A stretch of DNA of 35,460 bases from Pyrinomonadaceae bacterium (GTDB lineage Bacteria; Acidobacteriota; Blastocatellia; Pyrinomonadales; Pyrinomonadaceae). The stretch is taken from NCBI GenBank assembly GCA_023717565.1, contig JAMQPI010000204.1, positions 1 to 35,460 of the forward strand, written 5' to 3'. Positions 215-21,545 of the stretch are shown one piece after another. How positions within the stretch are numbered: position 1 is the stretch's first letter; each line of letters begins with the position of its first letter. The notes below the pieces were generated by a model. It did not search any database and had not been told where the DNA came from. It was given only the letters and a program-made list of their open reading frames with translations. The position numbers were made by a program, and so were the translations under genes.

Positions 215-1054
215 TTAGTTTCCCCTTTTGTCGAAAGAGCCTGATCCGTTCGCATGTATGATCGTGCCCACATGCTCTCCCTCCAGCGCGGCCGCAATGC
301 GCTCCGGATGCTGGCCGTTGACAATCTGAAATGATCGCAACAGTCTCGAGTTTTCCAAGAGGTCGAGCAGAATACGCTCGAAGGGGAGGCTCTCAAAGTG
401 GCGCTTCTTGAGTTCAGAGCTGTCAATCTCGCTGATAAAACTTGCCCCGGGGGTTTTCGGATCGCGGTCGTAGAGCCCATCGACGTCTTTTACCAAGGTG
501 AGTGACTGGCAGCCAAAACACTCGGCCAGCAGAAACGATCCCGCGTCGGTACGGTGAGGCGGTATTCGTCCGATTGCAGGCGGATGTTCCCAGAGCGAGT
601 ATGGTGGGACACCGTTGAAGATCACACCGGGAGCGCTGGCAATGAAAAGTGGCAACAGGTGACCCAGAATGTCGGGTGGGATGGCCACGACACCATAAGG
701 AGCCAGTAGTGTACCTAGAATATGCGCGTTGCCCAGAGCATCAGCCATAGCCAACTGCGCCAGGGCGCCGGTGGGAAGTCCCAGATCAATACCGATCGAA
801 AGAACGTGCCTGCTCCGCACACCTCCGCCAGCACCAATGATCAGCTTTTTTGTTTGCAGGCAGCGCGCCAGAACGTCGATCACCGGATAGACTACGTCTC
901 GCCCGGCATCAATGACTGATCGACCACCAATCTTAATCACATGCGCATTGGGAAGCATGCTGAAGACTGGTGTCTCAGTCGATTTCTGGACTTCTTTATC
1001 CAGCAGGCTTTCCCGCATGAGCTTTGAAGTGACGTGGTGACGGCCGTCTTTCAT
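215..1054 (-). CDS. mosA: Molybdenum storage protein alpha-like subunit (amino-acid kinase fold)
   Basis: A 279-aa amino-acid-kinase-fold protein. Visible motifs are VIKIGGRSVIDAG (residues 39-51), the glycine-rich IIGAGGGVRSRH (about 72-83), DLGLPTGALAQLA, the IPPHRTDAGSFLLAE block, VKDVDGLYDRDPK and a C-terminal GEHVGTII. From memory these follow the Azotobacter vinelandii MosA/MosB family. The GVRxRHVxSxGxDLGLP and LPxxRxLLD segments favour the alpha subunit. The characterised protein is a cytoplasmic heterohexamer that uses ATP to store molybdate or tungstate as polyoxometalate clusters. The gene lies 54 bp downstream of the beta-like gene on the same strand and is probably cotranscribed. 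A GAGGA ribosome-binding site precedes the ATG. Whether this copy stores metal is inferred, but the modABC operon 8 kb away supports it. Another amino-acid kinase such as a UMP kinase is less likely. Confidence 0.85.
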   Translation of the reverse strand: MKDGRHHVTSKLMRESLLDKEVQKSTETPVFSMLPNAHVIKIGGRSVIDAGRDVVYPVIDVLARCLQTKKLIIGAGGGVRSRHVLSIGIDLGLPTGALAQLAMADALGNAHILGTLLAPYGVVAIPPDILGHLLPLFIASAPGVIFNGVPPYSLWEHPPAIGRIPPHRTDAGSFLLAECFGCQSLTLVKDVDGLYDRDPKTPGASFISEIDSSELKKRHFESLPFERILLDLLENSRLLRSFQIVNGQHPERIAAALEGEHVGTIIHANGSGSFDKRGN

Positions 1055-1108
1055 TTCAGGATTCCTCGTTGCTGATTTGTTTGAATGGCCCCCGGCGGCG
1101 CACTCCAG

Positions 1109-1924
1109 CTAGTCAGCAGTGATAATGGTACCCACATGTTCTCCATTGAGGGCCCTGGTCAAATTACCTCGCTCCAATCCGTTGATGACCTGGACGGAAC
1201 GCCTGTGAGTGGCATGTCGCATCATTTCGGTAACGCCGCGTTCTAAAACCAAATCCTGCAAGTCAAGCTCCTCTAATTCTGAGACCGTTATTTTGCCTAT
1301 GAATTTGGCTGCTCGATCTTTCTTTGGATCGGCCGTGTACAGACCCTTCTCATCTTTTACAAAGATCATGGACCGGGCGCCAAACACTTCGCTAACCAGG
1401 TAACTGCCGGTATCGGTGCGGTGGGGTGGAATACGGCCCATGGCCGGGTTCCGTTGCCAGTAAATGTAAGGTGGCATGCCGAAAAAGATCACCGCTCCCC
1501 GCTCGGCCAGGTAATGTGGAAGCTGCGCAAACTGGGCGGGCTCAATAAATGGGATCCCGTTCTTGCTGAGAAGAAAATTAAGCATGCGGGCGTTCTGCAT
1601 ACTCACGAAAGTACCCAGCACACTCAGGACACCGGTGGGAAGTCCCAGATCAAGCCCTACGCTGTAAGCATGTCTCGCCCTGGTGCCGGCGCCCGTTCCG
1701 ATGATCATCTTGTGACGACCGAGGTTTTCTACGATCTCCTCAATCATCGGAAAGACCGCTGCTCGGCCTCGATCAATGAAACTCTGGCCGCCAATCTTGA
1801 TCACATTCGCTTCGGGCAGTATTTGGACCGCGGTGGGCCCGTCCGTTTGGGCCATCAAGATCTCGTCGTCCAGAGAACCCGACAGCAGGGACTTGCCTAG
1901 TTCGGTAAGGAGGCCGCTTTGCAT
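1109..1924 (-). CDS. mosB: Molybdenum storage protein beta-like subunit (amino-acid kinase fold)
   Basis: A 271-aa paralogue of the next gene. It matches MosB strongly in remembered landmarks: VIKIGGQSFIDRGRAAV (residues 41-57), IIGTGAGTRARHAYSVG (74-90), FFGMPPYIYW, GRIPPHRTDTGSYL, IFVKDEKGLYTADPKK, VQVINGLERGNLTRAL and the ending GEHVGTIITAD. In the known complex, alpha and beta subunits build a cage that binds ATP and polymolybdate. Here the beta gene comes first and the alpha gene follows after 54 bp. The ATG at 1922-1924 is preferred over the TTG immediately before it, with a weak AGAGAA ribosome-binding site. Two direct repeats of a GAGGA(A)TCAGATA motif lie just upstream (1946-1986). 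Finding both subunits argues for a functional storage complex rather than an orphan kinase. No nitrogenase gene is in the window. Confidence 0.88.
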   Translation of the reverse strand: MQSGLLTELGKSLLSGSLDDEILMAQTDGPTAVQILPEANVIKIGGQSFIDRGRAAVFPMIEEIVENLGRHKMIIGTGAGTRARHAYSVGLDLGLPTGVLSVLGTFVSMQNARMLNFLLSKNGIPFIEPAQFAQLPHYLAERGAVIFFGMPPYIYWQRNPAMGRIPPHRTDTGSYLVSEVFGARSMIFVKDEKGLYTADPKKDRAAKFIGKITVSELEELDLQDLVLERGVTEMMRHATHRRSVQVINGLERGNLTRALNGEHVGTIITAD

Positions 1925-1945
1925 CAATTTATTCTCTTTATTGTT

Positions 1946-1986
1946 GAGGATCAGATATCTCTCACCTGGCCCAGAGGAATCAGATA
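1946..1986 (-). promoter_or_regulatory. Direct repeat upstream of mosB (possible operator)
   Basis: GAGGATCAGATA (1946-1957) and GAGGAATCAGATA (1974-1986) are near-identical direct repeats separated by 16 nt, between the methyltransferase stop and the mosB start. Spacing of about 28 nt from one repeat start to the next is close to three helical turns, as expected for a dimeric regulator. A regulatory role is inferred and no known consensus was matched. Confidence 0.25.
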
Positions 1987-2015
1987 GTCTCCAGAATAGG
2001 TGTGGTGATAGCGCT

Positions 2016-2870
2016 CTACGCTACTGGTATGCGCAAAAATCTGAGTGCGTAGGACTCTTTAGCTTCAAAGTCTCGATCCAATCCGCCGAACTCTTCCTCG
2101 GCCCAGCCTTCCAGTTCGTTGAGGATCTCGTTTCGAGTCTGAGCCGGGACTCGAATGCCACCCAAACCCGTAAGGCAACGCCATGAATCTAATGATTGCC
2201 GGGGACTGGTCGAAACATTCCAACTGGCAACTTCTCGAAATTCCAGGGCCTCCGCGCCGCGACGACGACATGCGTCGACCAGCTTGGGATTCTGTTGCTC
2301 GCCACGACGACCTTCGAACCCACGACGGCGCAGCCGCTCATTCATCTCTTTAGCCATGCGGCTCCGCACGCTATCACGATCGCGTTCAACGCGTCCGAAG
2401 ATGAGGGTGGCACCGTCGGCCGCGGCTACACGAAAGACTTCGCCAGCGACATGCTCGTGATCGATCAGGTGCAATGCTCGCGAACTGAAGATCACGCGCG
2501 CTCTTCCGCTAGCAAGGGGCCAGCTTGAGTTGGCATCAGCCTGAATCAGCGAGCGATTTCCCGCATCGTCGGATAGCCGTCGCTGAGACTCTCTTAACAT
2601 GCCGCCGGAGAGATCGAATCCGACGTAACGAAAGCTTTGATGGAACCACTGAGCGATCTGGCCGGTCCCTGGACCAACTTCGAGTATCAAATCGTCTGGG
2701 CCCATCCGGCCGATTTCAACTACGGTAGTGGCAATGTCGCGGCAATAGTCCGCAGGCAAGCCGGCCCGTTGCTCAAACGCCGTAGCCTGTTCATCGAATA
2801 ACTCCCAGGTAGGGCCATTGGAACGCCGAGGTGATGACCCAGAGTCTTGTTGTTTGGCCGATAATCCCAT
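2016..2870 (-). CDS. Class I SAM-dependent methyltransferase
   Basis: A 284-aa cytoplasmic protein with a Rossmann-type methyltransferase core. Motif I is LILEVGPGTGQ (residues 61-71), followed by the acidic strand YVGFDLSGGML, then a post-motif segment with Gln-Ala-Asp and the motif VIFSSRALHLIDH. This resembles UbiE/type-11 methyltransferases. The substrate cannot be read from the sequence. The ATG at 2868-2870 follows GGTGGAAAC, an acceptable ribosome-binding site. The gene is upstream of mosBA on the same strand with a 91-bp gap, so cotranscription is possible but not shown. It is divergent from the Spy-like gene, 122 bp away. The C-terminal third is rich in Arg and Glu and is not recognised. 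Confidence 0.75.
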   Translation of the reverse strand: MGLSAKQQDSGSSPRRSNGPTWELFDEQATAFEQRAGLPADYCRDIATTVVEIGRMGPDDLILEVGPGTGQIAQWFHQSFRYVGFDLSGGMLRESQRRLSDDAGNRSLIQADANSSWPLASGRARVIFSSRALHLIDHEHVAGEVFRVAAADGATLIFGRVERDRDSVRSRMAKEMNERLRRRGFEGRRGEQQNPKLVDACRRRGAEALEFREVASWNVSTSPRQSLDSWRCLTGLGGIRVPAQTRNEILNELEGWAEEEFGGLDRDFEAKESYALRFLRIPVA

Positions 2871-2992
2871 CTAGTTTCCACCGGGATTTTTCATTGCAGA
2901 GTGAGTGGGCTCGTGATAGGATTTCTGCCCGTAACAACCGAGAAACTGTTCACCAACTATTGGCTGCTAAGTTAGAGGAAGGCGAGTGTACC

Positions 2993-3493
2993 ATGAGTAG
3001 ATGGAAGGCACAACGACCAGTTGCGGTGCAGGGCGCGCCGGGAACTGCGGCAACTGTGGAGACTCAGGTAAGCGGTCCGGATCAGCGAGAAACCGGTCGC
3101 CGCGGATCTGCGAAACAGGTTGGCGGCATAGGCATGTTGCTTCATCACGTTGAGGACTTCGGGCTTAACGATAATCAAGTAGAGCAGCTCAGCAAAATGC
3201 AGCTCGGCTTTGAGTTGGAGAAGGTTGATCTGCAAGCGGCTTTGCAAAAAGCGAAAATCAATTGGCGCGCGCTGGTTCGCGATATCGATGCTGCCGAAAA
3301 AGATGTGATGAAGGCGATTGATAACGTTGCTCAATGCGAGGCCAATCTTCGCAAAATGCGCTACAACCATTTGAAAGCTGCTCGCGGCGTGCTTCAGCCC
3401 AAGCAGCGAAACAATCTCAAGACCTTTCACCTCAAGCAATCTCGGCAAAAGGTCGGCGGCGGCAATCAAGCGGAAGGGCGGCGGACCGCTTAA
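2993..3493 (+). CDS. Spy/CpxP-like small helical protein
   Basis: A 166-aa protein. Residues about 45-150 are predicted to be almost entirely helical: DFGLNDNQVEQLSKMQ, then charged amphipathic helices, then ARGVLQPKQRNNL. The pattern of L-x-x-x-Q near the start and L-x-P-x-Q-x near the end is typical of the Spy/CpxP/CnrX periplasmic chaperone and metal-sensor fold. The ATG at 2993 was chosen for its GAGGAAGGCGAG ribosome-binding site; an in-frame upstream ATG at 2831 would lie inside the divergent methyltransferase. With this start no signal peptide is visible: the first 40 residues are polar and Pro/Gly-rich. That is odd for a periplasmic family. The gene is followed after 349 bp by two copper oxidases, which fits an envelope-metal role, though this is inference. 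Confidence 0.6.
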   Translation: MSRWKAQRPVAVQGAPGTAATVETQVSGPDQRETGRRGSAKQVGGIGMLLHHVEDFGLNDNQVEQLSKMQLGFELEKVDLQAALQKAKINWRALVRDIDAAEKDVMKAIDNVAQCEANLRKMRYNHLKAARGVLQPKQRNNLKTFHLKQSRQKVGGGNQAEGRRTA

Positions 3494-3842
3494 AGACCGT
3501 CTTCAGTACGCGTCAGCATGAGACGACTGGTAAGCCTTCGGTCCTCGCCGAAACGAAGGTTATCCAGTTCTACTTCACGAACAATAACTGAATTGGTCAA
3601 GAGGTCGGTAAACCTGTTCGGCTTGCTTTTTGGATCTTGTCCATTAGGCGGTTTTGCGAACTGCGACTCCTTACTTTCAAATTCTCAGAGCTCAACCCAA
3701 GAACCAAATCGCGTAAGCGTTTCCTTCAGATCGATCATAGGGTGGCTTAGAGGCCTTGCGCTCTAAAAACCGACGGTTAGCGTTCGACAAAAGTTGAACC
3801 ACCTGATTCTCACTTCTTCCGACTCTCAAAGGAGGCTCCCTG
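3494..3842 (+). other. Non-coding interval upstream of the first copper oxidase
   Basis: No convincing gene was found in either strand; the short open frames here lack ribosome-binding sites and family features. The interval ends in a strong AAAGGAGG ribosome-binding site at about 3828-3835, which fixes the start of the next gene. The promoter of the oxidase is expected here, but no clear -35/-10 pair or strong hairpin was identified. Confidence 0.5.
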
Positions 3843-5837
3843 ATGAAACGAAAGAACCGGCTTGGCCCTTCTCGTGAAGGTCTCAAACCAACTGCTAGCG
3901 GCGATCAAGAAACAAAGCCTGATTCCGATCCTAAAAGTGGACTTGGCCGCAGGGGATTTCTGAAGGCCGGTGCCGGCGCGGCGGTAGTAGCGCTCGTTAC
4001 GCCGACTGAATCGGTTGCTGCCCCTGAAGGGGGCGTTCGCGTGCCCCCCCAGAGACCGCCCCGACTCCTCGGGGAATGCAACGATGTGGTGTTCAGCGAG
4101 CCCAAGGCTGTCGTTGCCCGCACGATTGGAGGGAGGAGTGTACTCAACTTGTCCCTAACCGCTGAGCCGTTGAGCTGGACGTATCAGTGCCCCGACGATA
4201 CGCCCGAAACCGGCCTGCAACCGACTTACAACGGGGCGGTGCCCGGTCCCTCGATGTACGTCGATCCCGGAACGAGAATAGAAATCAAGCTTACTAACAA
4301 TCTCGACGCGATGCCGCCGTTTTCGGGTGACAACTGCCCGGGTGGTCATCATACTAGTCCGCCCACCCCGGCGTGCTTTCAACACACTAACCTACACACT
4401 CATGGCCTGCAGGTGTCCCCGTGCAGCATATCCAGCACCGGAGCTAAGCATTGCGGTCCATACGCGATAGACGGTGTTAACCCACCGCTGAGATGCTCAT
4501 CAGACGACGTGCTGATAGACATCTTTCCAGGCCAGAGCAACAAGTACTGTATCGTTCTGCCGAATATGCACGCGCCCGGCACGAATTGGTATCACTCTCA
4601 CCTGCACGGTGCGTCGGCCTATCAGGTTTCCGGCGGCATGGCAGGTGCGCTTATTATTCGTGAGCCTCCTGCTGCGGCCCTGGTTCGCGAAGATTTGGAC
4701 AAGGTTTTCGTGCTGCAAGAGGTCCTTCTAAACCCGACCCCGCTTCCTCCGATACCCCCAGTCTACGGCTCTGTAGGCGCCATGCCCGACACCCAGGTCT
4801 TTGTCAATGGCCTGTGCCGGCCCACGCTGAAGATGTTAGCGGGCCAAACCATGCGCTGGCGTTTTATCAATGCTACGGGAACCCCGCGCGGGCTAATGAA
4901 GCTTAGACTTGTTAAGACCCAGACCTGCAGCAGCACCTTTCCCGCGAATAACAATGACAACCAACTGATGCACCTCATCGCCATAGACGGCATTTCATTC
5001 TACGGCGTCAATCCTCAACCGGTGAGGTATCACCTGATGGGCCCGGGCAGTCGCGCCGATTTCTTGATCAACATCACGGAACCGGGCCTCTACACGCTTT
5101 TGAAGGATGGTTTCCCACTGGAAAGTGTTCTGAATCCCACTTCAACGAATTTCACAAATGCTTCGGCTCAGAGTAAGGACGTGCTTGCGTATATCGACGT
5201 GCAACCCTCGCGTTACCGTGACGTAATCCCGAAGATCATTCCAGGTAAGAAACCCGCGTACCTGAATCCTATCTGGAGGGTGGACTACGTTCGGCCGCAA
5301 CCAATCAAGTTTCAGAATACGGCCCCGGGGACGTTCCAAGTCGACAACGCTTTCTACGATGCGAACGTGCCTATCAAGGCAAAGCTGAACACGGCCGAGG
5401 AATGGACCTTGCAAAACATAGGGTTTGCCGGAGCCCCGCAAACTAATACGCACCCGTTCCACGTCCACATCAATCCATTCCAGATAAATGGCATCGCCTT
5501 CGACTTTGAAGTCGCGGACGCTGATCGCAAGGTGCCTCGGATGAATTGGAGGGACCCGTGTACTTGGCCGTTTTGGGATACTATTCCCATCCCCGCACAG
5601 ATGACGCCCGGTACCAGTCCGCCAGGACAGTTAAAGATTCGCAGCCGGTTCCTGATTTACGACGGCGAGTACGTCACTCATTGCCACATTCTGGTGCACG
5701 AGGACGTGGGAATGATGATCAACGTTAAGCTAATCGGTAGCGGAATCGGACCGAACGTACCCGTACTCGATTATCCGGCTGCTGCTAAGGCTTGCATAAG
5801 ACGAACCAGCCGGTGCCCCGGAGATACAATCGTGTGA
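3843..5837 (+). CDS. Tat-exported multicopper oxidase (laccase-like), first copy
   Basis: A 664-aa three-domain multicopper oxidase. It begins with a long charged n-region and a twin-arginine signal, GRRGFLKAG (RR at 36-37), so it is folded with copper and then exported. The copper-ligand motifs are complete: HTHG (H185, H187), HSHLHG (H251-H255), HPFHVH (H537, H540, H542) and HCHILVHEDVGMM (H613, C614, H615, H619, with M624 as probable axial type-1 ligand). Such enzymes oxidise phenols, metals (Cu(I), Fe(II), Mn(II)) or bilirubin-like substrates and reduce O2 to water. Substrate is not readable here. An AAAGGAGG ribosome-binding site precedes the ATG by 7 nt. The N-terminal domain is unusually Cys-rich (for example DNCPGGHH, HCGPYAID and RCSSDD), suggesting extra disulfides. 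A second oxidase follows after 238 bp. Confidence 0.9.
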   Translation: MKRKNRLGPSREGLKPTASGDQETKPDSDPKSGLGRRGFLKAGAGAAVVALVTPTESVAAPEGGVRVPPQRPPRLLGECNDVVFSEPKAVVARTIGGRSVLNLSLTAEPLSWTYQCPDDTPETGLQPTYNGAVPGPSMYVDPGTRIEIKLTNNLDAMPPFSGDNCPGGHHTSPPTPACFQHTNLHTHGLQVSPCSISSTGAKHCGPYAIDGVNPPLRCSSDDVLIDIFPGQSNKYCIVLPNMHAPGTNWYHSHLHGASAYQVSGGMAGALIIREPPAAALVREDLDKVFVLQEVLLNPTPLPPIPPVYGSVGAMPDTQVFVNGLCRPTLKMLAGQTMRWRFINATGTPRGLMKLRLVKTQTCSSTFPANNNDNQLMHLIAIDGISFYGVNPQPVRYHLMGPGSRADFLINITEPGLYTLLKDGFPLESVLNPTSTNFTNASAQSKDVLAYIDVQPSRYRDVIPKIIPGKKPAYLNPIWRVDYVRPQPIKFQNTAPGTFQVDNAFYDANVPIKAKLNTAEEWTLQNIGFAGAPQTNTHPFHVHINPFQINGIAFDFEVADADRKVPRMNWRDPCTWPFWDTIPIPAQMTPGTSPPGQLKIRSRFLIYDGEYVTHCHILVHEDVGMMINVKLIGSGIGPNVPVLDYPAAAKACIRRTSRCPGDTIV

Positions 5838-5886
5838 GCGAGGAAATGGTGGATCTACTTCATTGATCGACTCGCCATGCACGTCG

Positions 5887-5910
5887 ACAGCCGCGGCCGT
5901 CCGCGGCTGT
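5887..5910 (+). terminator. GC-rich hairpin after the first copper oxidase
   Basis: ACAGCCGCGG (5887-5896), loop CCGT, then CCGCGGCTGT (5901-5910) forms a perfect 10-bp stem 50 nt after the stop codon. There is no T-run after it, so it could attenuate read-through or stabilise mRNA rather than act as a classic intrinsic terminator. Confidence 0.45.
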
Positions 5911-6075
5911 CCGCGTATAGGCATCCGGCAAAAGAATCGAACGGATCGAAAGGTCCGACATCCTTTCAGCTTGTCCTCAGGATTGGCAAGGCTCAAGGTG
6001 CGACGTAAGGGGTGGTATCATCACTTGAGTTCAATAATCTCGACGACAAGCTGAAGCATATCGGACCACTGAGTC

Positions 6076-7686
6076 ATGCCACGGAAAGCCTCCGAGAAAA
6101 ATTCAGGCTTGGGGCGGCGACGATTCCTCACCGGGGGATTAAGTGTCATCGCCGCGGTGGTAGGGCCCTGGGAAAAAGCCTTTCCCCAAAGCCGAAAAGC
6201 AACCAGCACAGCGCCTTCCAGTTTCGAACCTTTTACCCAGCCTGCGGTCCAAATCTCTCAGAACGGCACGCTGCGAACAAACCTACGAGTGGTTGAGGCC
6301 GACGTGTCAATTCGCGATGTTCAGGGAGTGCGGATTGAGCACACTCGCTGCTACAACGGATCCGTGCCTGGTCCGACGTTAAAGCTTCGAGCCGGCGAAG
6401 AATTGAGGATTAAGCTGTCTAATGAACTTCCCTCGCTCAGCGAGCACTGCGGCAAGGAACATCTCAACCGGCCTCACTGCTTTAATACGACCAACATTCA
6501 TACGCATGGCCTCCATGTCTCGCCTGAGGCTCCTTCGGACAACTCTTTTTTGCGAATCGAACCCCAATCTGATTATCAGTATTGCTTTCAACTGCCGGAC
6601 ATGCACCCCGCCGGCACATTTTGGTACCACGCGCATGTTCACGGTTCTACCGGAGTACAGTCCATGAACGGAATGGCCGGAGCGCTGATTATTGAGGACC
6701 CCGACAAAGAAAAACTGGTGCCTGAATCAAGAGACGTCGTTTGGATGATTCAAGAGTTGATGGGAAAAGGTGCAGAAAAGCTCTACTCCTGCGATCATCC
6801 GCATGCTCCCTACACCGTCAATGGAAAATTTCAACCCACGCTTAACTTGCGGCCCGGCGAGGTTCAGCGCTGGCGCTTCATAAATGCTACGGCCACGCCC
6901 GGCGGCTATATGGATCTGCAATTGCTCGATCGAAACAACACCCGACAGGAGTTCATGCTAATCGCAATCGACGGTTACCCGTTGCGTAAAAGGCAGCGAC
7001 GAACATCGTACGTCCTGCCACCAGGAGGGCGCGTTGACTTCCTGGTGCGATTACGCCGCCCGGGAAGATACAAAATGCTGAAGCGTCGATTTCAGGGCCA
7101 GGCGCAAGATCAGGTGCTTGCCTGGATTGACAGCGTTGGAAAACCGCTAAACACGCCTTTGCCAAGAGCGTTGTCGTCACTACCGCCGTTTCTGAACCCG
7201 ATTACTGACGAAGAAATCGTCAAGCGACGGATCATCAGATTTCAAGTCTGTCCGGATCAAGCCCGCGGTGATATCTGCAAGAATTATCCCAGCGCGAAAC
7301 TCTGCAGCGGTGACAAAGGCCACGAACTGCTTGCCAACGTGTTCTTGATTGATGGTAAGCCATACGATCCGGATCGCGTGGATCATTCAATCAGGTTGGG
7401 AACCGCCGAGGAGTGGGAAGTCGTCAATGAGACTGGGGCAGAACATCCGTTTCACATTCACATCAATCACTTTCAGGTGATGCGGCCTGGTGTGGCGCCG
7501 GAGGACTGGGTATGGCAGGACACAGTGAGTCTGCCGGCCGATCGAAGTGTCAAGATCCGGTCGCGCTTTCTCGACTATCCGGGACGTTTCCTCCTACATT
7601 GCCACATCCTCTTGCACTCTGACTTAGGGATGATGCAGAACGTGGAGGTCGTGGGTGATGGCAAGGGGCCTTTGGGGATGGTCTAG
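6076..7686 (+). CDS. Tat-exported multicopper oxidase, second copy
   Basis: A 536-aa paralogue of the preceding oxidase, about 130 residues shorter. It has a compact Tat signal with GRRRFLTGG (Arg 14-16) followed by a hydrophobic run. Copper ligands are intact: HTHG (H142, H144), HAHVHG (H185, H187, H189), HPFHIH (H457, H460, H462) and HCHILLHSDLGMM (H508, C509, H510, H514, M519 as probable axial ligand). It shares family segments such as RWRFINATATPGG and AGALIIEDP with the first copy, pointing to duplication followed by divergence. No strong ribosome-binding site is seen before the ATG, so the start rests on the Tat signal. It is presumably periplasmic and reduces O2 to water with an unknown electron donor. 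Lacking the long n-region and several Cys of the first copy, it may use a different substrate. Confidence 0.88.
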   Translation: MPRKASEKNSGLGRRRFLTGGLSVIAAVVGPWEKAFPQSRKATSTAPSSFEPFTQPAVQISQNGTLRTNLRVVEADVSIRDVQGVRIEHTRCYNGSVPGPTLKLRAGEELRIKLSNELPSLSEHCGKEHLNRPHCFNTTNIHTHGLHVSPEAPSDNSFLRIEPQSDYQYCFQLPDMHPAGTFWYHAHVHGSTGVQSMNGMAGALIIEDPDKEKLVPESRDVVWMIQELMGKGAEKLYSCDHPHAPYTVNGKFQPTLNLRPGEVQRWRFINATATPGGYMDLQLLDRNNTRQEFMLIAIDGYPLRKRQRRTSYVLPPGGRVDFLVRLRRPGRYKMLKRRFQGQAQDQVLAWIDSVGKPLNTPLPRALSSLPPFLNPITDEEIVKRRIIRFQVCPDQARGDICKNYPSAKLCSGDKGHELLANVFLIDGKPYDPDRVDHSIRLGTAEEWEVVNETGAEHPFHIHINHFQVMRPGVAPEDWVWQDTVSLPADRSVKIRSRFLDYPGRFLLHCHILLHSDLGMMQNVEVVGDGKGPLGMV

Positions 7687-7781
7687 CACTTGCTTGTAAT
7701 GCAGATCCCCCGCATTTGTTCGCCCAATAGTGCTAAAGCAATGCGCAATCTAACGTCGCTGTCAAAAAAGAGAACACCGTC

Positions 7782-8492
7782 ATGAAAAGCTTACCCATAT
7801 TCTTCTTAGTTGCTTTGCTCGGAGTGACTATTATCGCTGCGCCGGTTCAATCTGAAACCACGGTCGTCCAAACGGCGGAATTCCAACCTCTCAGGGACGC
7901 CACCCTCATCGAGAGCACCACAGGAGATCTTGCCAGCTCGACTGCTGAAACCATCTTCGTAGGACGCACGGGCCAGGCGGAGAACGGCAAGAGGCGAGGG
8001 CTGATAGCTTTTGACCTTGCCGCAATTCCGGCCCGGTCGCGGATCTTGTCGGTTACGCTAACAATGACTGTGCAAATAAGCGCCGGCGGTCCACAGCCAA
8101 CGCCAATCAGTTTGTATCGAGTTTTGAGCTCCTGGGGAGAGGGGAGTTCTGCAAGTCAGGGCGGCAGAGGTGTGCAAGCCCAGCCCGGCGATCCGACCTG
8201 GATCTATAGCGTCAGTCCAACTCACTGCTGGTCTCGCCCGGGTGGGGACTACGAACGGGTCGTTAGCGGACAGGAGCAGGTCGGAGGCCCGGGAGCCTAC
8301 ACCTGGAAGTCCACACCAGGACTGGTGACCGATGTGCAATCATGGCTGAACTCGCCGAAGGATAATTTTGGCTGGATACTAGTCGGTGATGAATCACGGC
8401 CAGTTACGGCTAAAGTGTTCAAGAGCAGAGAGAGCACTGATGAGGCTGCGCGACCTAAGTTGACTGTGACTTTTAGACCACCTGCAAAATAA
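7782..8492 (+). CDS. Secreted DNRLRE-domain protein
   Basis: A 236-aa protein with a Sec signal peptide (MKSLPIFFLVALLGVTIIAA, cleavage probably near PVQSET). The rest is one DNRLRE domain: an early strand-rich RDATLIESTTGDL, RGLIAFDLAAIPARS, LYRVLSSWGEG, WIYSVSPTHCWSRPGGDYE, then TDVQSWLNSPKDNFGWILVGDES and the closing PKLTVTFRPP. The domain is a jelly-roll fold common on secreted and cell-surface proteins of environmental bacteria. It is probably a binding or structural module rather than an enzyme. It lies 95 bp after the second copper oxidase on the same strand, so it may belong to that transcription unit. The ribosome-binding site is weak (AGAGAAC). Its stop is followed by a hairpin repeat and the convergent end of modC. 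Confidence 0.8.
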   Translation: MKSLPIFFLVALLGVTIIAAPVQSETTVVQTAEFQPLRDATLIESTTGDLASSTAETIFVGRTGQAENGKRRGLIAFDLAAIPARSRILSVTLTMTVQISAGGPQPTPISLYRVLSSWGEGSSASQGGRGVQAQPGDPTWIYSVSPTHCWSRPGGDYERVVSGQEQVGGPGAYTWKSTPGLVTDVQSWLNSPKDNFGWILVGDESRPVTAKVFKSRESTDEAARPKLTVTFRPPAK

Positions 8493-8526
8493 TTGCTTCG
8501 ACTCTCGTCCGGAGAAAACAAATACA

Positions 8527-8577
8527 ATCCACGAAATCACACGAAACGGATGTCTTGTTTCGTGCTATTTCGTGGAT
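8527..8577 (+). repeat. Palindromic repeat between convergent genes (CACGAAAT type)
   Basis: Left arm 8527-8547 (ATCCACGAAAT then CACACGAAAC) and right arm 8557-8577 are reverse complements with two mismatches, around a 9-nt loop. The element sits between the stop codons of the DNRLRE gene and of modC, so it probably works as a bidirectional terminator. Its arms have the internal quasi-repeat CACGAAA seen in simple-sequence palindromes of many environmental genomes. Confidence 0.75.
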
Positions 8578-8594
8578 CGTTTGGTTGAGACTCG

Positions 8595-9323
8595 TTAGGC
8601 GTTCGAAGCTTCCATGACCAGTTGCTTTGTTGGATGTGAGTACACATCGCCCGGAGCGCCGATCCGTTCTATTCTCCCGTCCCGCACCACTGCCAGTCGA
8701 TTACCAACCGTGAACGCGTCTTCCAGATTATGAGTTACATAAATTACGATCAATTCCGCTTCTGCTTGTAACTTCAATAGATCCTGGTGCAGTTGTTTGC
8801 GAATCTCGCTATCAAGGGCGGAAAAAGGTTCATCCATTAGCAAGACGCGCGGTTCCATGGCTAACGCCCGGGCGATTGCCACCCTCTGCTGTTGTCCACC
8901 TGACAGTTCATGTGGGAAGCGGTTCGCCAATTCCACTAGTCGCATCCGTTGGAGCAGGGCTTCAGCACGCGCTCGCGCCTGAGGCTGTCGCCACAAAGCA
9001 TATGACACGTTCTCTAAGGCCGTGAGGTGGGGGAAGAGCGCATATTGTTGAAAGACGTAGCCAACGCCGCGCCTTCGCGCCGGCAGATTGATTGTCTGGC
9101 CATTCCGCGTTTCGCTGGAGGCGCGAAAGAAAACAGCATCGTCAAGAGTAATCTCCCCCGCGTCCGGGGTCACCAGTCCGGCAATCGCGTTTAGCGTCTG
9201 TGTCTTGCCTGCTCCGGACGGTCCGAACAGTACGAGTATTTCCGCGCCAACTTCAATCTGCACGCAAAGATTGAAGTTTGCCAGTCGCTTTTCGATATTC
9301 ACCTTGAGGCGGGGTGCTTTCAT
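8595..9323 (-). CDS. modC: Molybdate ABC transporter ATP-binding protein
   Basis: A 242-aa ABC ATPase. Walker A is GPSGAGKT (residues 34-41), the signature is LSGGQQQR, and Walker B is RVLLMDEPFSALD followed by the switch histidine in YVTHNLEDA. It powers high-affinity molybdate import with ModB and ModA. The start at 9321-9323 (MKAPRLKV) was chosen over an upstream in-frame GTG or ATG that would overlap modB; this leaves an 11-bp gap to modB. The family usually reaches about 350 residues with a C-terminal TOBE/Mop molybdate-binding domain. Here the protein stops soon after the nucleotide-binding domain, so that domain is missing. A stand-alone Mop domain is instead found on the regulator at 14372. 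The sulfate/tungstate branch cannot be excluded from this subunit alone. Confidence 0.87.
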   Translation of the reverse strand: MKAPRLKVNIEKRLANFNLCVQIEVGAEILVLFGPSGAGKTQTLNAIAGLVTPDAGEITLDDAVFFRASSETRNGQTINLPARRRGVGYVFQQYALFPHLTALENVSYALWRQPQARARAEALLQRMRLVELANRFPHELSGGQQQRVAIARALAMEPRVLLMDEPFSALDSEIRKQLHQDLLKLQAEAELIVIYVTHNLEDAFTVGNRLAVVRDGRIERIGAPGDVYSHPTKQLVMEASNA

Positions 9324-9334
9324 TTGACGGTCAC

Positions 9335-10000
9335 TCAACGAAGATCCACTTTCCTGTGATATTGCGGCAGTTCGAGTTGTCGAACGCACCACAAGCCAAC
9401 GAACGCCACCGACGTCATCACGATGACCATTATTCTAGCTTGCTCGTACCTTTGCGCCTGCACCGCATCATAAATAGCAAGCGGTAGTGTCTGAGTTTGT
9501 CCGGGAATGTTGCCCGCGACCATCAAGGTGGCGCCGAATTCGCCCAGCGCGCGCGCGGCACCGAGGATCAATCCGGCGATCACCCCGCGCCGGGCGAGGG
9601 GCAACGTCACCCGCCACAAGATTTCTAACTCTGATGAGCCAAGCGTGCGCGCCGCATTTTCCAGGACATGATCCACACTGGCGATCGCAGCGCGCGCTGA
9701 CTGGACCATCAACGGCAGGCCAACGACAGCCGATGCGATGGCAGCCGATTGCCAGGTAAAGAGCAAACGAACGTGAAACCATTCGACTATCGGGCTGCCC
9801 CGCCCCAACACCAGCAGCAGCAAATACCCAATGACGCTCGGTGGAAGCACTAAGGGCAGAAAGATAGCTGTCTCAATAATGATCTGACCGGGCAATCGAT
9901 ACCGCGCCAACAGCACGCCTAACGCCAGACCGATCACGAAAAGCGTGATCGTCGCGACCGCCGTCACCTGTAGCGAAAGCGTCAGGGCAGACCAATTCAC
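9335..10000 (-). CDS. modB: Molybdate ABC transporter permease
   Basis: A 221-aa integral membrane protein with about five or six hydrophobic segments. The cytoplasmic coupling (EAA-like) loop is NAARTLGSSELEILWRVTLP followed by ARALGEFGATLMVAGNIPG, typical of ModB/CysT permeases. It forms the molybdate channel in the inner membrane. The start is a GTG at 9998-10000 that overlaps the modA stop in the sequence GTGA, a 4-nt overlap implying translational coupling. It is located between modA and modC in the standard order. Length is close to the family norm of about 225 residues. Confidence 0.9.
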   Translation of the reverse strand: MNWSALTLSLQVTAVATITLFVIGLALGVLLARYRLPGQIIIETAIFLPLVLPPSVIGYLLLLVLGRGSPIVEWFHVRLLFTWQSAAIASAVVGLPLMVQSARAAIASVDHVLENAARTLGSSELEILWRVTLPLARRGVIAGLILGAARALGEFGATLMVAGNIPGQTQTLPLAIYDAVQAQRYEQARIMVIVMTSVAFVGLWCVRQLELPQYHRKVDLR

Positions 10001-10806
10001 TTGACTGGCTCCTCTCCCGGCAGAATGAAACCATAGCTTCTCATGATTGGGCGCCCTTGTGGTGAGTTTATGAAGCTGGCGAAGCGTCGCGCCTCAGCTT
10101 CATGTCGCGTGCCTCTAGGGACAGCCAATGCCTGGTTAAGTTGCTTGTGCAATTTCTCTGAAATCAGTACCCAACGTCCATTACTCTTGATACTGAGAGA
10201 AAGGGCGACAATCGCGGCATCGACGTTTCCCGTCTCGGCGTATTGAAGTGTCTGCCTCACATTCTCGCCAAAAACCAGTCTTGAGGATACGCGCTCCCAA
10301 ACGCCGGCGGACTGTAACGCTTCGCGCGCCGCCTGGCCATACGGCGCGTGCTCAGGATTTGCGATAGCTACGTGCCGTACCTCAGATCCGGCGAGGTCCT
10401 CGAGGCGCTCAAGCTTTAAGGGGCTGTCACTACGAGTCCAAAGTGTGATGCGTCCCTGCGCGTAAAGCGCTTTAGTCTCGGGAATGATCAGATTCTTCCG
10501 TTCAAGTTCATCAACGAAGCTGACGTTCGCAGCCGCAAAGAGATCCACTGGCGCTCCCTGCTCAATCTGTTGCGCTAGTTGTCCGGTCGACCCGAAGTTG
10601 AATGTCACTTTGACGCCGCTCTCACGCTCGAATAGACGGCCAATCTCTTCAAATGCGGGCGCGAGATCGGCGGCGGCCGACACCGTCAGCGTCACCGGCG
10701 TTTCCTTCCCTCCGGCCGAGCGTCCACACGAAAGCCCAAAGACCAGCAAGGTCAGGAGAGTGGCGACCGTGATTGTGCGGGCTGACATTGGCAGTCGAAA
10801 GATCAT
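9997..10806 (-). CDS. modA: Molybdate-binding periplasmic protein
   Basis: A 269-aa solute-binding protein. It has a signal peptide with hydrophobic run VATLLTLLVFGLS and a Cys at residue 27 (GLSC), so it may be a lipoprotein although the lipobox is imperfect. The mature part starts VTLTVSAAADLAPAFEEIG and continues FNFGSTGQLAQQIEQGAPVD, the conserved ModA oxyanion-binding layout, with GYxxPG-like C-terminus (YGFILPGEE). It captures molybdate or tungstate in the periplasm and delivers it to ModBC. The ATG at 10804-10806 follows GAGTG; a second in-frame ATG six codons later is possible. It lies 51 bp downstream of a TonB-dependent receptor on the same strand, which is an uncommon mod-operon partner. 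Confidence 0.9.
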   Translation of the reverse strand: MIFRLPMSARTITVATLLTLLVFGLSCGRSAGGKETPVTLTVSAAADLAPAFEEIGRLFERESGVKVTFNFGSTGQLAQQIEQGAPVDLFAAANVSFVDELERKNLIIPETKALYAQGRITLWTRSDSPLKLERLEDLAGSEVRHVAIANPEHAPYGQAAREALQSAGVWERVSSRLVFGENVRQTLQYAETGNVDAAIVALSLSIKSNGRWVLISEKLHKQLNQALAVPRGTRHEAEARRFASFINSPQGRPIMRSYGFILPGEEPVK

Positions 10807-10857
10807 TTGTTCACACTCGGTGGCGACCGGTCGTAGTCGAGCGGCACTCGAATCTCT

Positions 10858-13800
10858 TCAAAAGTTGAGCTTCACACCGAGCTGAATCACACGGGGGTCG
10901 CCAGCCGACGTGATTGAGCCGAACCCCGGCGAGGCGAGCACCACATTTGGAGATCCCAGCGGCGGTGTATTAGTCAGGTTGAAGAACTCGGCGCGAAGCT
11001 CCAGGTTCCTTGCCTCAGCGAACCGAATGCGCTTGATCAAAGCCAGATCGGCGTTTTGATATTTCGGTCCTCGAACTGGATTGCGTGAACTCGTGCCGAG
11101 CCTGAACTGCGAGGCTTGGGTGAATGCCGCCGTATTGAAGAACTGCGCCGTGGTTTGTTGTGATGATGGCAGATTAGGGTTTGCTATTAGATTCGGTCGC
11201 TGCGTTCCGAAACCCGCGAAGGCATTGAAATTCGTAGCCTGCGTTACCGCCAACGGTATTCCTGATTGCAGAGTAACGACACCTGCCAGTTCAAAACCGC
11301 CAAAGATTGCTCCGGCGATCCCGCCCGGATTGAATCGCTTGCCTTTTCCGATCGGTAAATCGTAAGTAAAGCTTGCGACAACGACGTTGGGAATGTCTCC
11401 CGTCGAAAGATCTCGTTCGAGTCTGCGATTAAAGCTATCAGCTACCGGAAAGTTAGCTATGGGACCGGTCAGGATTGAAGCATCGAAGACAGAAGAAGCC
11501 TCATCGATCAGCTTTGACCGAGTGTAGGAGACGAGAAATGAAAGTCCGCGCGAGAACCGTTGTTCCAGCTTGGCCTGAAGTGCGTTGTAGTTCGTATTTC
11601 CCACATTGTTGCGATAGAGACTCACGCCGGTAAATCGCGGAAAAGGTTTCAATAACTGGGCCACCGGAATCGTCGGATCGCCAAGGCTGGACGATCGTGG
11701 GATCTGGCCGAAGAACGGGTTGGGCACGCGCACCAGCAGTGCCGGGCCCATGGCGAGCTGACTGGCAGTGAGTTGGTTGATGTTGGTATCGGGAATGCCA
11801 ACATGAGTGATCTTTGATCCGGCGTAAGCGATCTCCACCACCATGTTCCTGGTGAGTTCACGTTGTACCGCAATGTTCCACTGCTGTGCGTAGCCACTAC
11901 CCAGATTCGCATCGACTGAGAATACGCCCTGGCCCAGGCCGGCATCGGGTGTCAGCGGAATCGGCGCCACCGTGGGGCCAGTCGAAAGCGTGAATGCCGG
12001 AGTGATATTGTCGAGCGTTCGCTGAGAGACGGTCTGAATAAACGGAAACTGAGGAGTGGTAAAAGGGGTTGTGATGCCCGCCATTTCGATCCAGCTTACT
12101 CCGTAGCCGGCCCGCGCCACCGTTTGGTCATTCAGGCGATAGGCAACTCCCAGGCGTGGTCCAAAGTTGAGTTTGTGCAGGCGACGCGCTGATTCGCTAA
12201 ACCCATTCTGACCCAGGTACTCCAGTTGCTGAGTTTGCAGATTGAAGACGGCGCCTTGATTGTTTGCTTCGGTGGAAGGGAAGTTGAGTGTGTACCTCAG
12301 ACCCGCGTTGATAGTCAGACGAGATGAAGCCTTGAAGTCATCCTGCACAAAATACTCCTGGATGTGCGCGCGCGGTTGCAGGACACTCTGCTGGATGTCG
12401 ATCGAGAATGTTTGCACCTGACCAAGCAGAAAACTGGCCAGAGAGTTTCCACTAAAGCTTGCGAGGGCCGAGCCGATAGTAGGAATTGCCTGTGAGTTAG
12501 TGAAGAGAGTGCTGAAGCTGAAATTCCCGGTCGGCGAGGGCGGTTGAATCACATCGAGCCGCTCCCAGCGAAAGTCGAGTCCAAACTTGAGTGAGTGCCG
12601 GCCACGTTGGATCGAAACGGCGTCGAAAACCTGAGTCACGTCGGTGCGGAAATCCGACGCGGTGTTGGCTGATGGACCGAGTTGTTGCAGACCGGCGATC
12701 GTGAAGGTCGGCAGAGTGTTTTCAAAAGCTCCATTCGTGGGTATACCCGGGATGTTCAGGCTCTGCGACGGCGAGGAATCGAGTTGAGTCGCCCGTCGTT
12801 CAACCTTTCTTTTTGTATAGCCAACGCGAAGCTCATTCAACAGTTGAGGACTGAAGACGTGCACATAGTTTCCCGCGAATGACTGGGCCCTGGTGTCCGT
12901 GGGTCCAGTCACCCCGCTGGTGATATTACCGCTGCCGTCGGGTAGTGGCGTTATCGGACTGGTGATGCCCTTGGCGTATGAGTAGCGTCCGAAGACCTGA
13001 TCGTTAGGCGAGAAACGATGATCAAGCCGAATGTCGAACTGGTCCTGATCGTCGGGATCGTTGCCGATGCGAGTAAAGTTGTTAGCCGAACCGCTCGAAG
13101 TTGGAGTCGGATAGCGCTGTAACAGTGATGCCGCCACCGGGTCGAACGTGCTTACCGGGATGAGATTGCCTGGATATGCGCGATGATCCGAAGGCCGGAA
13201 GATTTGGCCCACGCGGGCCTGTATGGTGTTCCCGTTCGTATCCGTGACATTGACCGGAGTAGCGCTGACTGTCGTGCTGATTGAACCGTTTGACTGTAAA
13301 TACAGTAAGGCCCCAAGACTGGCCGAGAAGTTACCTTGCCGTTGCGCCACGGTCGGTACGGTTGAGGTGCGTACTCGCGCCAGCAACTGACGCGTGCCTT
13401 GATAGTCTCCAAAGAAAAAAGTCTTATCCTTGATGATCGGTCCGCCAACTACGAAGCCGAATTGATTGCGTCTGAATACCGGCTTGTTTGGATTTGCAGC
13501 CGTGGCGGGAGCGAACAGGTTGCGAGCATTCAATGCTTCATTTCTGAGGAATTCAAAGGCCGATCCGTGAAAGTTATTGGTTCCTGATTTAGTAGTCAGA
13601 TTAACCACTCCGCCATTGAAACGTCCAAACTCCGCCGGCGGGCTGTTGACTTCCACTTTGAACTCTTGAATCGCTTCGACAATCGGAAAGAAGGCCACCT
13701 GACCCGGTTCAGGCTGCAAGACAGAGATACCGTCAAAAAGATATTCGTTCGTACGCGGCCGGCCACCATTGATGCGCGGAAAGGATGGTCCCGCAGTCGT

Positions 13801-14313
13801 TGGGGGTGGTTGGGCCACGCCGGCAGACAAGGTGACCAATGAAAGAAAATTCCTGCCATTCAGCGGCAGGTCAACGATCTTTTGGTTTCTGATTACCTGA
13901 CCAAGACTGCCGGATTCCGTCCTCAGCAGCGAAGCGTCCTGACTGACGGTTACAGTTTCGGCTACCGCTCCAGGATCCAGCACGACGTCCACCCGAACGC
14001 GCTCGCCGGTAGCCAGTCGCACGCCTTCCCGCACGAACCTTTTGAAACCCGCCGTTTCGACAGTGACGCTATACGTTCCTGGCTTCAGACTGGTGATTGT
14101 GTAGTTACCGCTGTCAGTGACGCTGGAAGAGTACGTTTGAGCGGTGGCGACCTCGGTAGCGACGACTCGGGCTTGAGTAACGATAGCTCCGTTCTGATCG
14201 CGTACTTCGCCGGTTAGTTCTGCTCTGCCGGACTGTGCACTAACCACCGCGACCGAACTTAAGTAAGAAAGGACAGCGAGGCAGACCATGAGGGAACGAG
14301 AGGTTAACCGCAT
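10858..14313 (-). CDS. Oar-like TonB-dependent receptor in the molybdate operon
   Basis: A 1151-aa outer-membrane protein. It has a signal peptide (residues 1-26, ending VVSAQ), a carboxypeptidase-regulatory/CNA-B-like domain (about 30-120, with VRDQNGAIVTQARV and SLKPGTYSVTVETAGFKR), a TonB plug (LPLNGRNFLSLVTLSAGV and INGGRPRTNEYLFDG) and a long beta-barrel ending in IQLGVKLNF, the aromatic terminal residue typical of outer-membrane proteins. The ATG at 14311-14313 has an AAAGGAG ribosome-binding site 7 nt away. Acidobacteria carry many such receptors, usually assigned to glycans. This one lies between the Mop-domain regulator (58 bp) and modA (51 bp), all on one strand, so I infer it may bring molybdate or a molybdate chelate across the outer membrane. 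The sequence alone does not prove the ligand. Confidence 0.85.
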   Translation of the reverse strand: MRLTSRSLMVCLAVLSYLSSVAVVSAQSGRAELTGEVRDQNGAIVTQARVVATEVATAQTYSSSVTDSGNYTITSLKPGTYSVTVETAGFKRFVREGVRLATGERVRVDVVLDPGAVAETVTVSQDASLLRTESGSLGQVIRNQKIVDLPLNGRNFLSLVTLSAGVAQPPPTTAGPSFPRINGGRPRTNEYLFDGISVLQPEPGQVAFFPIVEAIQEFKVEVNSPPAEFGRFNGGVVNLTTKSGTNNFHGSAFEFLRNEALNARNLFAPATAANPNKPVFRRNQFGFVVGGPIIKDKTFFFGDYQGTRQLLARVRTSTVPTVAQRQGNFSASLGALLYLQSNGSISTTVSATPVNVTDTNGNTIQARVGQIFRPSDHRAYPGNLIPVSTFDPVAASLLQRYPTPTSSGSANNFTRIGNDPDDQDQFDIRLDHRFSPNDQVFGRYSYAKGITSPITPLPDGSGNITSGVTGPTDTRAQSFAGNYVHVFSPQLLNELRVGYTKRKVERRATQLDSSPSQSLNIPGIPTNGAFENTLPTFTIAGLQQLGPSANTASDFRTDVTQVFDAVSIQRGRHSLKFGLDFRWERLDVIQPPSPTGNFSFSTLFTNSQAIPTIGSALASFSGNSLASFLLGQVQTFSIDIQQSVLQPRAHIQEYFVQDDFKASSRLTINAGLRYTLNFPSTEANNQGAVFNLQTQQLEYLGQNGFSESARRLHKLNFGPRLGVAYRLNDQTVARAGYGVSWIEMAGITTPFTTPQFPFIQTVSQRTLDNITPAFTLSTGPTVAPIPLTPDAGLGQGVFSVDANLGSGYAQQWNIAVQRELTRNMVVEIAYAGSKITHVGIPDTNINQLTASQLAMGPALLVRVPNPFFGQIPRSSSLGDPTIPVAQLLKPFPRFTGVSLYRNNVGNTNYNALQAKLEQRFSRGLSFLVSYTRSKLIDEASSVFDASILTGPIANFPVADSFNRRLERDLSTGDIPNVVVASFTYDLPIGKGKRFNPGGIAGAIFGGFELAGVVTLQSGIPLAVTQATNFNAFAGFGTQRPNLIANPNLPSSQQTTAQFFNTAAFTQASQFRLGTSSRNPVRGPKYQNADLALIKRIRFAEARNLELRAEFFNLTNTPPLGSPNVVLASPGFGSITSAGDPRVIQLGVKLNF

Positions 14314-14371
14314 TGCGTGAATCTCCTTTGTGAGTGTTGCCTTGCGGCAAAACGGAAATCCAGATCAACAA

Positions 14372-14776
14372 CTAGCCTCGGATCACCATGACTTCCGTAG
14401 CCTTGATCAGAGCGTAAACCTGAACACCTTCTTTCAAATCCAACGCCCGCGCGCTATCACTGGTTATGATCGAAGTAATCTCTTGACCGGCCACGTCTAT
14501 CGTTATCTGGACCAGCAAGCCCTCGTAGCGGATTTCGGTGACCGTCCCACTCAGCTTGTTTCGACCACTGATCGAGTCCAGACCCAGGGGCTTTCCTCTT
14601 TTCGAAAGTTTTCGATTAACTCCCGTCACTCGCTCGATCTCGCTGCGCGCTATTCGGTGATGACCACCAGCAGTTTTGGTCGAACGAATCTTGCCCTGGT
14701 AGATCCACTGCTTCAGCGTTGGGTAACTAACGCCGGCCATCTGGGCTGCGTCCATAGGTTTTAATAGCTCGCTCAT
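14372..14776 (-). CDS. Molybdate-responsive regulator: helix-turn-helix plus Mop/TOBE domain
   Basis: A 134-aa cytoplasmic protein with two parts. Residues 1-52 are an excisionase/MerR-like winged helix (MDAAQMAGVSYPTLKQWIYQ and GGHHRIARSEIERV), a DNA-binding module. Residues about 66-134 are a Mop/TOBE molybdate-binding domain (GRNKLSGTVTEIRYEGLLVQ, IITSDSARALDLKEG and ALIKATEVMVIRG). It is not the classic ModE, which has a LysR-type N-terminus and two Mop domains. It is probably dimeric and represses or activates the operon it heads in response to Mo. The ATG follows AATAGGAACG. An inverted repeat ATTTACC-N5-GGTTAAT overlaps its own promoter region. Confidence 0.85.
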   Translation of the reverse strand: MSELLKPMDAAQMAGVSYPTLKQWIYQGKIRSTKTAGGHHRIARSEIERVTGVNRKLSKRGKPLGLDSISGRNKLSGTVTEIRYEGLLVQITIDVAGQEITSIITSDSARALDLKEGVQVYALIKATEVMVIRG

Positions 14777-15011: not shown

Positions 15012-15330
15012 CTGGTTGAACATAGGATCCATTGGCTACGGCAAATGGTTCTGTGGTTGAGCGGTTGCGGGGCTGGTTGAATCTAGCATCCATTGGCTAC
15101 GGCAAATGGTTCTGTGGTTGAGCGGTTGCAGGGCTGGTTGAATCTAGCATCCATTGGCTACGGCAAATGGTTCTGTGGTTGAGCGGTTGCAGCGCTGGTT
15201 GAATCTAGCATCCATTGGCTACGGCAAATGGTTCTGTGGTTGAGCGGTTGCAGGGCTGGTTGAATCTAGCATCCATTGGCTTACGGCAAATGGTTCTGTG
15301 GTTGTGTGGGTTGCAGGGCTGGTTGAATCT
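15012..15330 (+). repeat. Tandem array of a 61-bp repeat, five units plus a partial
   Basis: CTGGTTGAA recurs at 15012, 15073, 15134, 15195 and 15256 (period exactly 61), then at 15319 after a 63-bp unit with two small insertions. Units are nearly identical, so there are no unique spacers and it is not a CRISPR. Each unit contains CCATTGGC-TACG-GCAAATGG, able to form an 8-bp stem with one mismatch, capped by a C(UACG)G tetraloop in RNA. A period of 61 is not a multiple of three, which argues against coding. It lies in the divergent interval between the Mop regulator and the second TonB-dependent receptor. Confidence 0.92.
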
Positions 15331-15464
15331 GCTCGCTTTTTTTGGCAAGGCGGGGTTATGATTTGCCGTCTTCACAGTATCACTCAAGCAGCGTTTTGCT
15401 CACTGCCTCATGTCATCAGCAGTTATCACTAACCCGCCCGTTTTCCTCAGAAAAGGAGTCTGTG

Positions 15465-21529: not shown

Positions 21530-21545
21530 GGAGTCAGAATAGTCG

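Follow-up and report, generated by a model that had tools for sequence, protein, structure and literature searches.

A molybdenum storage protein-like gene pair with altered cluster ligands, linked to a methyltransferase and near a molybdate transport operon, in a Pyrinomonadaceae bacterium

To our knowledge, no storage protein other than the molybdenum storage protein (MoSto) has been shown to build polyoxometalate clusters. According to a passage of a structural review (PMC4504029), the covalent ligands of octamolybdate in the Azotobacter vinelandii complex are His156 and Glu129, and three histidines related by symmetry hold a tungstate cluster. Passages of PMC6448029 and PMC11980592 (2025) discuss MoSto for nitrogen fixers, and the latter attributes a cage-like molybdenum storage protein to some N2-fixing organisms. 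Here we analyze a 35,460-nucleotide stretch of DNA from a soil Pyrinomonadaceae bacterium of the Acidobacteriota (GCA_023717565.1, contig JAMQPI010000204.1; hereafter the window), in which two MoSto-family genes lie near a molybdate transport operon. The locus is probably a system for acquiring molybdate (or tungstate) and buffering it for molybdopterin enzymes, with an ATP-driven store whose cluster ligands are altered.

Three minus-strand genes form the mos unit. In transcription order they are the methyltransferase, mosB and the second mos subunit, separated by gaps of 88 and 54 bp, and they may be co-transcribed.

2870-2016, minus strand: class I S-adenosylmethionine (SAM)-dependent methyltransferase, 88 bp upstream of mosB (Pfam PF13649/PF08241)
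1927-1109, minus strand: first subunit (MosB), 272 amino acids, 56% identical to A. vinelandii MosB (AvMosB); phmmer score to MoSto beta, 295 bits
1054-215, minus strand: second subunit (MosA position), 279 amino acids, amino-acid-kinase fold, without the cluster ligands of A. vinelandii MosA (AvMosA)

As in the MoSto family, two unlike paralogous subunits are encoded in tandem. The products of 215-1054 and 1109-1927 score 233 and 295 bits against A. vinelandii MoSto but no more than 36 bits against uridine monophosphate (UMP) kinases. Neither reaches the cut-off of the UMP kinase model TIGR02076 (57.8 and 61.4 bits; cut-off 158.05), and MosB falls far below that of TIGR02075 (PyrH; 30.8 bits against 243.9). 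In a monomer model, the fold of the second subunit is closer to MoSto than to UMP kinase or other amino-acid kinases. The window alignment retains kinase-fold motifs shared with MoSto, namely the lysine of VIKIGG, a glycine-rich loop, RTD and VKDxxGLY; AvMosA itself deviates from AvMosB at RTD and VKD. The lysine that PDB 6ris carries as a mutation (Kb42S), position 42 of AvMosB, is present in both window subunits as K44 and K41. We therefore rejected a UMP kinase identity: PyrH cut-offs are missed, the match is far weaker than to MoSto, and PyrH is not a tandem pair of unlike subunits. By sequence, both proteins belong to the MoSto family, and for the second subunit the modeled fold points the same way. 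The first-pass annotation, made from the DNA letters alone, had called two MosAB-like open reading frames (ORFs) on this strand and proposed a search against MosA/MosB and UMP kinases; that search agrees with it, save that the second ORF ends at 1927 rather than 1924.

A tree of 83 of the 158 subunit rows, unrooted and drawn with a midpoint, sets every B row apart from every A row with support of 100/99. Matching subgroups appear on both sides, as expected of co-inherited subunits; the A rows form three groups without a settled branching order. Members of this family can hide under other names: on Azospirillum plasmids (L101, L102), the MosB gene carries the label uridine (monophosphate) kinase, and the gene next to it is called molybdenum storage protein subunit alpha. 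Databases do include the family, since K00947 is given as mosAB in a passage of a 2026 metagenome study (PMC13188454).

We compared the window with 80 relatives' loci, the best 80 of at least 425 stretches confirmed to encode relatives among at least 594 pattern matches. Because of this choice, the set is biased toward the window's own type. The loci span 12 phyla, hand-assigned by record title, and many are contigs of metagenome-assembled genomes (MAGs) of unstated completeness. The closest MosB relatives among the matches listed come from two Pyrinomonadaceae MAGs and one Acidobacteriota MAG (85, 84 and 82% identical). Residue counts cover 73 second subunits and 79 MosB proteins other than the window's; the MosB of L066 is too short to count.

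In the PDB sequences of A. vinelandii MosAB (2ogx, 4f6t), Glu129 and His156 occur in chain A and are absent from chain B, so we assign both to the alpha subunit. His140 of this subunit we take to be the threefold-axis histidine. The window's second subunit, which is nearer to AvMosB than to AvMosA, instead has Pro126, Phe137, Ser153, Leu154 and Trp155 in the columns of AvMosA Glu129, His140, His156, His157 and His158. Retention of these five residues among the 73 other second subunits is low (13, 8, 1, 1 and 6, respectively), and the full Azotobacter pattern occurs at one locus only, L076, from an Acidimicrobiia MAG in which no nifD was found. Because His156 and Glu129 are so rarely kept, the window's alpha-like subunit belongs, on residue evidence, to a divergent subfamily. 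We sorted the 80 loci into type III, the window's own and mostly PF-x-L/I-W (53), type IV, EM... (12), type II, which keeps His140 (7), and type I (1); the seven unclassified loci have no second subunit within the distance and length limits of our script, though one is visible at L049, L070, L073 and L079 (partial).

An alpha-like subunit without Glu129, His140 and His156-158 means that the Azotobacter storage function cannot be transferred unchanged. Loss of the cage-lining residues, which the first-pass annotation had named as evidence against its own proposal, is thus what we observe, whereas the grouping with UMP or other kinases that it also named is not. Two residues are possible replacements. 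The window's MosB has Glu129 in the AvMosA Glu129 column, and glutamate stands there in 66 of the 79 other MosB proteins. A histidine in the same alpha loop (H157 in the window, four columns past His156) is shared by 64 of the 73 other second subunits.

No nitrogenase-family gene was detected in the window's genome (6.9 Mb, 735 contigs, completeness 89%), which has no PF00148 match; the absence of nif genes noted in the first pass thus extends genome-wide, within that completeness. This setting is not peculiar to the locus, since nifD (TIGR01282) was not found in the genomes of 74 of the 80 relatives, many of them MAGs of unstated completeness. The six that carry it are four cyanobacteria and two Bradyrhizobium, and all six have window-type alpha residues, PFSLW or PFSIW. 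Given these six, loss of the ligands does not track diazotrophy, and nitrogen fixation in itself does not, as far as residues tell, depend on the Azotobacter pattern. The distribution suggests that in many cases MoSto-like cages have a role outside nitrogenase supply. MosB itself is present in 5 of 297 sampled Acidobacteriota genomes, the window's included. A further 18 members of its family were listed, and none has a MosB match; two Pyrinomonadaceae MAGs of another collection have one. Among 398 Pseudomonadota genomes searched for MosA-type subunits, the seed genome itself was the only match.

Possible clients are encoded elsewhere in the genome. A scan of 10 of 11 candidate loci placed one aerobic CO dehydrogenase large subunit (CoxL) and two formate dehydrogenase alpha subunits over curated cut-offs; the formate dehydrogenases may use molybdenum or tungsten. 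Further xanthine-dehydrogenase-family proteins fall below the cut-offs; among five PF00384 matches, one is scored as NuoG and a further two stay under every cut-off. CO dehydrogenase as a dedicated client was rejected, with CoxL over its cut-off in just 7 of 51 mos genomes, the window's own included. The earlier suggestion of a molybdenum or tungsten buffer for molybdopterin enzymes thus gains possible clients but loses the cage ligands of the known protein.

The methyltransferase is a recurrent third member of the mos unit. It is encoded upstream of mosB, in the same orientation, in 47 of the 80 relatives, 76 of which have room for it, and in 10 of the 12 phyla; the remaining 4 loci have neither upstream room nor the gene. 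A match was counted as upstream if its end is no more than 1.5 kb from mosB in that orientation; 40 of the 47 lie within 150 bp or overlap, and the farthest, at L009, is 1.4 kb away. In the Acidobacteriota sample, scored for up to 8 candidates per genome, the family was found in 4 genomes: 3 of the 5 that are MosB-positive versus 1 of the 292 that are MosB-negative (Fisher p = 9e-6). The MosB-negative exception, L104, is an orphan methyltransferase (5331-6020) cut by the contig end, with no mosB match on its 6-kb contig. We rejected chance adjacency. Six family matches lie outside the adjacency window; those at L055, L056 and L071 adjoin mosB with overlapping matches, and that of L021 is 2 kb upstream.

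An AlphaFold2 (AF2) model of the methyltransferase (confidence score, pLDDT, 88.5) has a class I fold. Its nearest solved structure is TTHA0223 (PDB 2yqz, titled hypothetical; 26% identity, TM-score 0.77 by query length), with small-molecule methyltransferases among later ones. We know of no link between TTHA0223 and molybdenum. Invariant positions in the family alignment (A2) include, beyond the SAM-binding glycines, one tryptophan, W217. No cysteine is conserved in at least 85% of 45 members, which disfavors arsenite-type chemistry. Among the open-licence papers searched that contain 'molybdenum storage protein', no title describes a mos-methyltransferase operon, and one metagenome survey alone pairs the phrase with 'methyltransferase'.

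A second minus-strand unit, 14776-8595, lies 6.7 kb from the mos subunit genes, close to the 7 kb first estimated. It would be led by a regulator; successive genes are separated by 58 and 51 bp and then overlap by 4 and 58 bp.

14776-14372, minus strand: HTH_17 plus TOBE (Mop) regulator, at the head of a presumed operon (PF12728, PF03459; TIGR00638, 68 bits, cut-off 55)
14313-10858, minus strand: TonB-dependent receptor, 1151 amino acids, carboxypeptidase-regulatory domain and OMP_b-brl_4 barrel (PF25183, 780 bits; PF13620)
10806-9997, minus strand: modA, molybdate-binding protein (TIGR01256, 208 bits, cut-off 62.5)
10000-9335, minus strand: modB, permease (TIGR02141, 225.7 bits, cut-off 182.6)
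9392-8595, minus strand: short ModC-type ATPase without a TOBE match (TIGR02142, 210.5 bits, cut-off 285.05)

ModA and ModB exceed their TIGR equivalog cut-offs yet score under narrower PRK models. ModC stays below its equivalog cut-off, and other ATP-binding cassette (ABC) ATPase families score equally high. We rejected a ModE identity for the regulator, which reaches 25.8 bits against PRK10676 (cut-off 369) and has the HTH_17 plus Mop architecture instead. The first reading of 8595-14776 as modABC with a Mop-domain regulator holds, with ModC short of its equivalog threshold; it had overlooked the receptor inside the operon as well as the same-strand methyltransferase at 2016-2870. In the Mop/Tub (molbindin) storage proteins, for which intracellular molybdenum or tungsten buffering is likewise proposed (a passage of PMC11980592), the TOBE domain is the storage domain, whereas in the window it sits on a DNA-binding regulator.

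At 34 of the 80 relatives' loci, a match to ModA or ModB of the window was detected, with the caveat that a ModB-type permease may also pick up related transporters. One close relative, L004, has the methyltransferase, mosB, mosA, modA, modB and modC in one unbroken run on one strand. The receptor is a lead and not a conserved part of the system: among 29 short modA loci and 8 longer regions of Acidobacteriota, one clear case of pairing was seen (L113/L142, the same genome), with the receptor divergent from modA. Azotobacter chroococcum also has a TonB receptor beside molybdate ABC genes, but there beside nif genes (a passage of PMC4465626). Compared for operator-like words and palindromes, the upstream regions of the window's two transcription units share short words and no convincing common site.

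Between the mos and mod genes, the opposite strand carries four ORFs (2831-8492).

2831-3493, plus strand: ORF with sub-threshold LTXXQ/Metal_resist similarity, its first 40 bases overlapping the methyltransferase ORF; similar ORFs at L003 and L063
3843-5837, plus strand: multicopper oxidase (MCO) 1, 664 amino acids, RR-type leader, copper-ligand motifs (PF07731/PF07732, motif scan)
6076-7686, plus strand: MCO 2, 536 amino acids, RR-type leader, copper-ligand motifs (PF07731/PF07732, motif scan)
7782-8492, plus strand: probably secreted protein without a Pfam match up to E = 1; tblastn finds similar ORFs at L005, L010, L016, L031 and L032

Three copper or hydrolase-type genes had been called here; two are real MCOs, no hydrolase family matched, and there are two further ORFs. 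For 7782-8492, 'DNRLRE' is a provisional label. The RR-type leaders make the MCOs probably periplasmic. An MCO occurs at 24 of the 80 relatives' loci, and at 11 it forms a contiguous single-strand run with the methyltransferase and mosB (gaps of 2-112 bp). For 50 loci, the count of 20 compares with an expectation of about 0.60 derived from PF07731 density across genomes. This ratio is rough, since it sets a profile built from the same loci against a hand-summed background of 177 PF07731 matches in which some genes occur twice. Linkage of the methyltransferase and the MCO to mos is too frequent to ignore. Within 3 kb downstream of mosA, an ABC-2 permease, its family identified from one member (PF01061, L041), is found at 17 of the 80 loci, and at L018 an ABC ATPase (PF00005) stands between mosA and the permease. 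The 'export-linked redox chemistry' proposed in the first pass draws contextual support, and no other kind, from these MCO and ABC-2 neighbors. Another oxyanion link is seen in a Chloroflexota MAG, where a chromate-type transporter (PF02417; L082:7130-8404) lies downstream of mosA.

We hold acquisition and buffering of molybdate (or tungstate) to be the probable function, and it could work as follows. The Mop-domain regulator would control the receptor-modABC operon, which would carry the oxyanion into the cell. There both MoSto-family subunits would form a heteromeric, ATP-driven kinase-fold cage that sequesters it. MosB E129 and second-subunit H157 would be candidates to replace the Azotobacter alpha polyoxomolybdate ligands. 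The methyltransferase and MCOs may act on an organic ligand that carries molybdenum or competes for it, or may influence the stored metal's state; a ligand-processing role for them is our guess.

Several observations weigh against this explanation. The protein might not nucleate clusters at all, because the covalent ligands of the characterized MoSto are absent, and we know of no metal analysis of any member with window-type residues. In the window, mos and mod are separate units 6.7 kb apart. No modA/modB match was found at 46 of the 80 loci at the threshold used, many of whose contigs are short, and such matches are frequent only in type III (29 of 53, versus 1 of 12 in type IV). Among the 76 loci where it would fit, the methyltransferase is missing from 29, which include the sole type I locus and every one of the 5 type II loci with enough upstream sequence, and no methyltransferase of the mos-linked family stands beside MosB on the three Azospirillum plasmids checked. 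The rarity of MosB in Acidobacteriota (5 of 297) marks an accessory trait.

In a different explanation, a MoSto-derived kinase or oxyanion-binding enzyme no longer stores molybdenum and works with the methyltransferase and MCO in a small-molecule pathway, for example for a phenolic metallophore, the molybdate genes being neighbors for another reason. The cluster ligands are indeed absent from the alpha-like subunit, and small-molecule methyltransferases are among the nearest solved folds after the uncharacterized protein. The linkage to MCOs, and to the ABC-2 permease at 17 of 80 loci, fits as well. So do the type IV loci (Acidobacteriaceae, Rhizobiales, Acetobacteraceae and others), where the methyltransferase and the MCO each occur at 11 of 12 loci and modA/B at 1. 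Yet both subunits are retained as a co-inherited pair, and modA or modB matches at 34 of the 80 loci, in L004 in a single run with mosBA. In addition, no conserved small peptide resembling a precursor of ribosomally synthesized and post-translationally modified peptides was found near mosB, and the main recurrent families identified include no further biosynthetic enzyme, most minor clusters not being identified. We regard such a pathway as rather unlikely.

The physiological metal could instead be tungstate. A. vinelandii MoSto can also accumulate tungsten (a passage of PMC6448029), and a passage of PMC11980592 describes ModABC as a carrier of either oxyanion and states that sequence does not reveal which metal a TOBE protein binds. 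The genome's two formate dehydrogenases would suit this metal too, but modA and modB exceed molybdate equivalog cut-offs and an aerobic Mo-type CO dehydrogenase is encoded, so that we consider tungstate quite unlikely. A canonical nitrogenase-serving MoSto whose nif genes are missing from the assembly is highly improbable: although the genome is just 89% complete and six relatives have nifD, PF00148 finds no match, nifD was not found in the other 74 genomes, and the six diazotrophic relatives carry window-type alpha residues themselves.

The preferred explanation, a molybdate (or tungstate) store with altered ligands, can be extended to the family, tentatively and with considerable doubt. Compared with A. 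vinelandii MosAB, the window lacks a detected nif gene and has a methyltransferase upstream; on the Azotobacter side, the comparison covers the proteins alone. Azotobacter MoSto might then be an offshoot, and the common form a multi-phylum, non-nitrogenase metal-oxide cage with relocated ligands (the glutamate to B, the histidine along the alpha loop), a dedicated SAM methyltransferase and a periplasmic MCO. Together these could make up an unrecognized acquisition pathway for molybdenum or another oxyanion, for example by freeing molybdenum from phenolic or catechol complexes through oxidation and O-methylation before storage. If the methyltransferase-linked form does store metal with other ligands, it would be a natural experiment in cluster chemistry and would reopen the question of the family's purpose, with the methyltransferase, MCO and ABC-2 permease as testable partners.

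Rfam and tRNA scans of the window gave no matches, and PADLOC returned a weak methyltransferase match only, which does not indicate a defense locus. At 34055-35296 (plus) and 34131-35300 (minus), two long ORFs overlap on the two strands, and Pfam matches neither. Directly before a second TonB-dependent receptor gene (15342-18689) lies a tandem array (15012-15330) of 5.2 copies of a 61-bp unit with 96% match. A glycan-type cluster at 20348-25712 encodes a group 1 glycosyltransferase, a 710-amino-acid protein without a Pfam match, a GNAT_6 acetyltransferase and a PF24793 protein; the last matches (214 bits) the N-terminal domain of glucosamine inositolphosphorylceramide transferase, a family name unexpected in a bacterium. 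Finally, 28501-29523 encodes a stand-alone ATP-dependent DNA ligase (PF01068 and PF04679).

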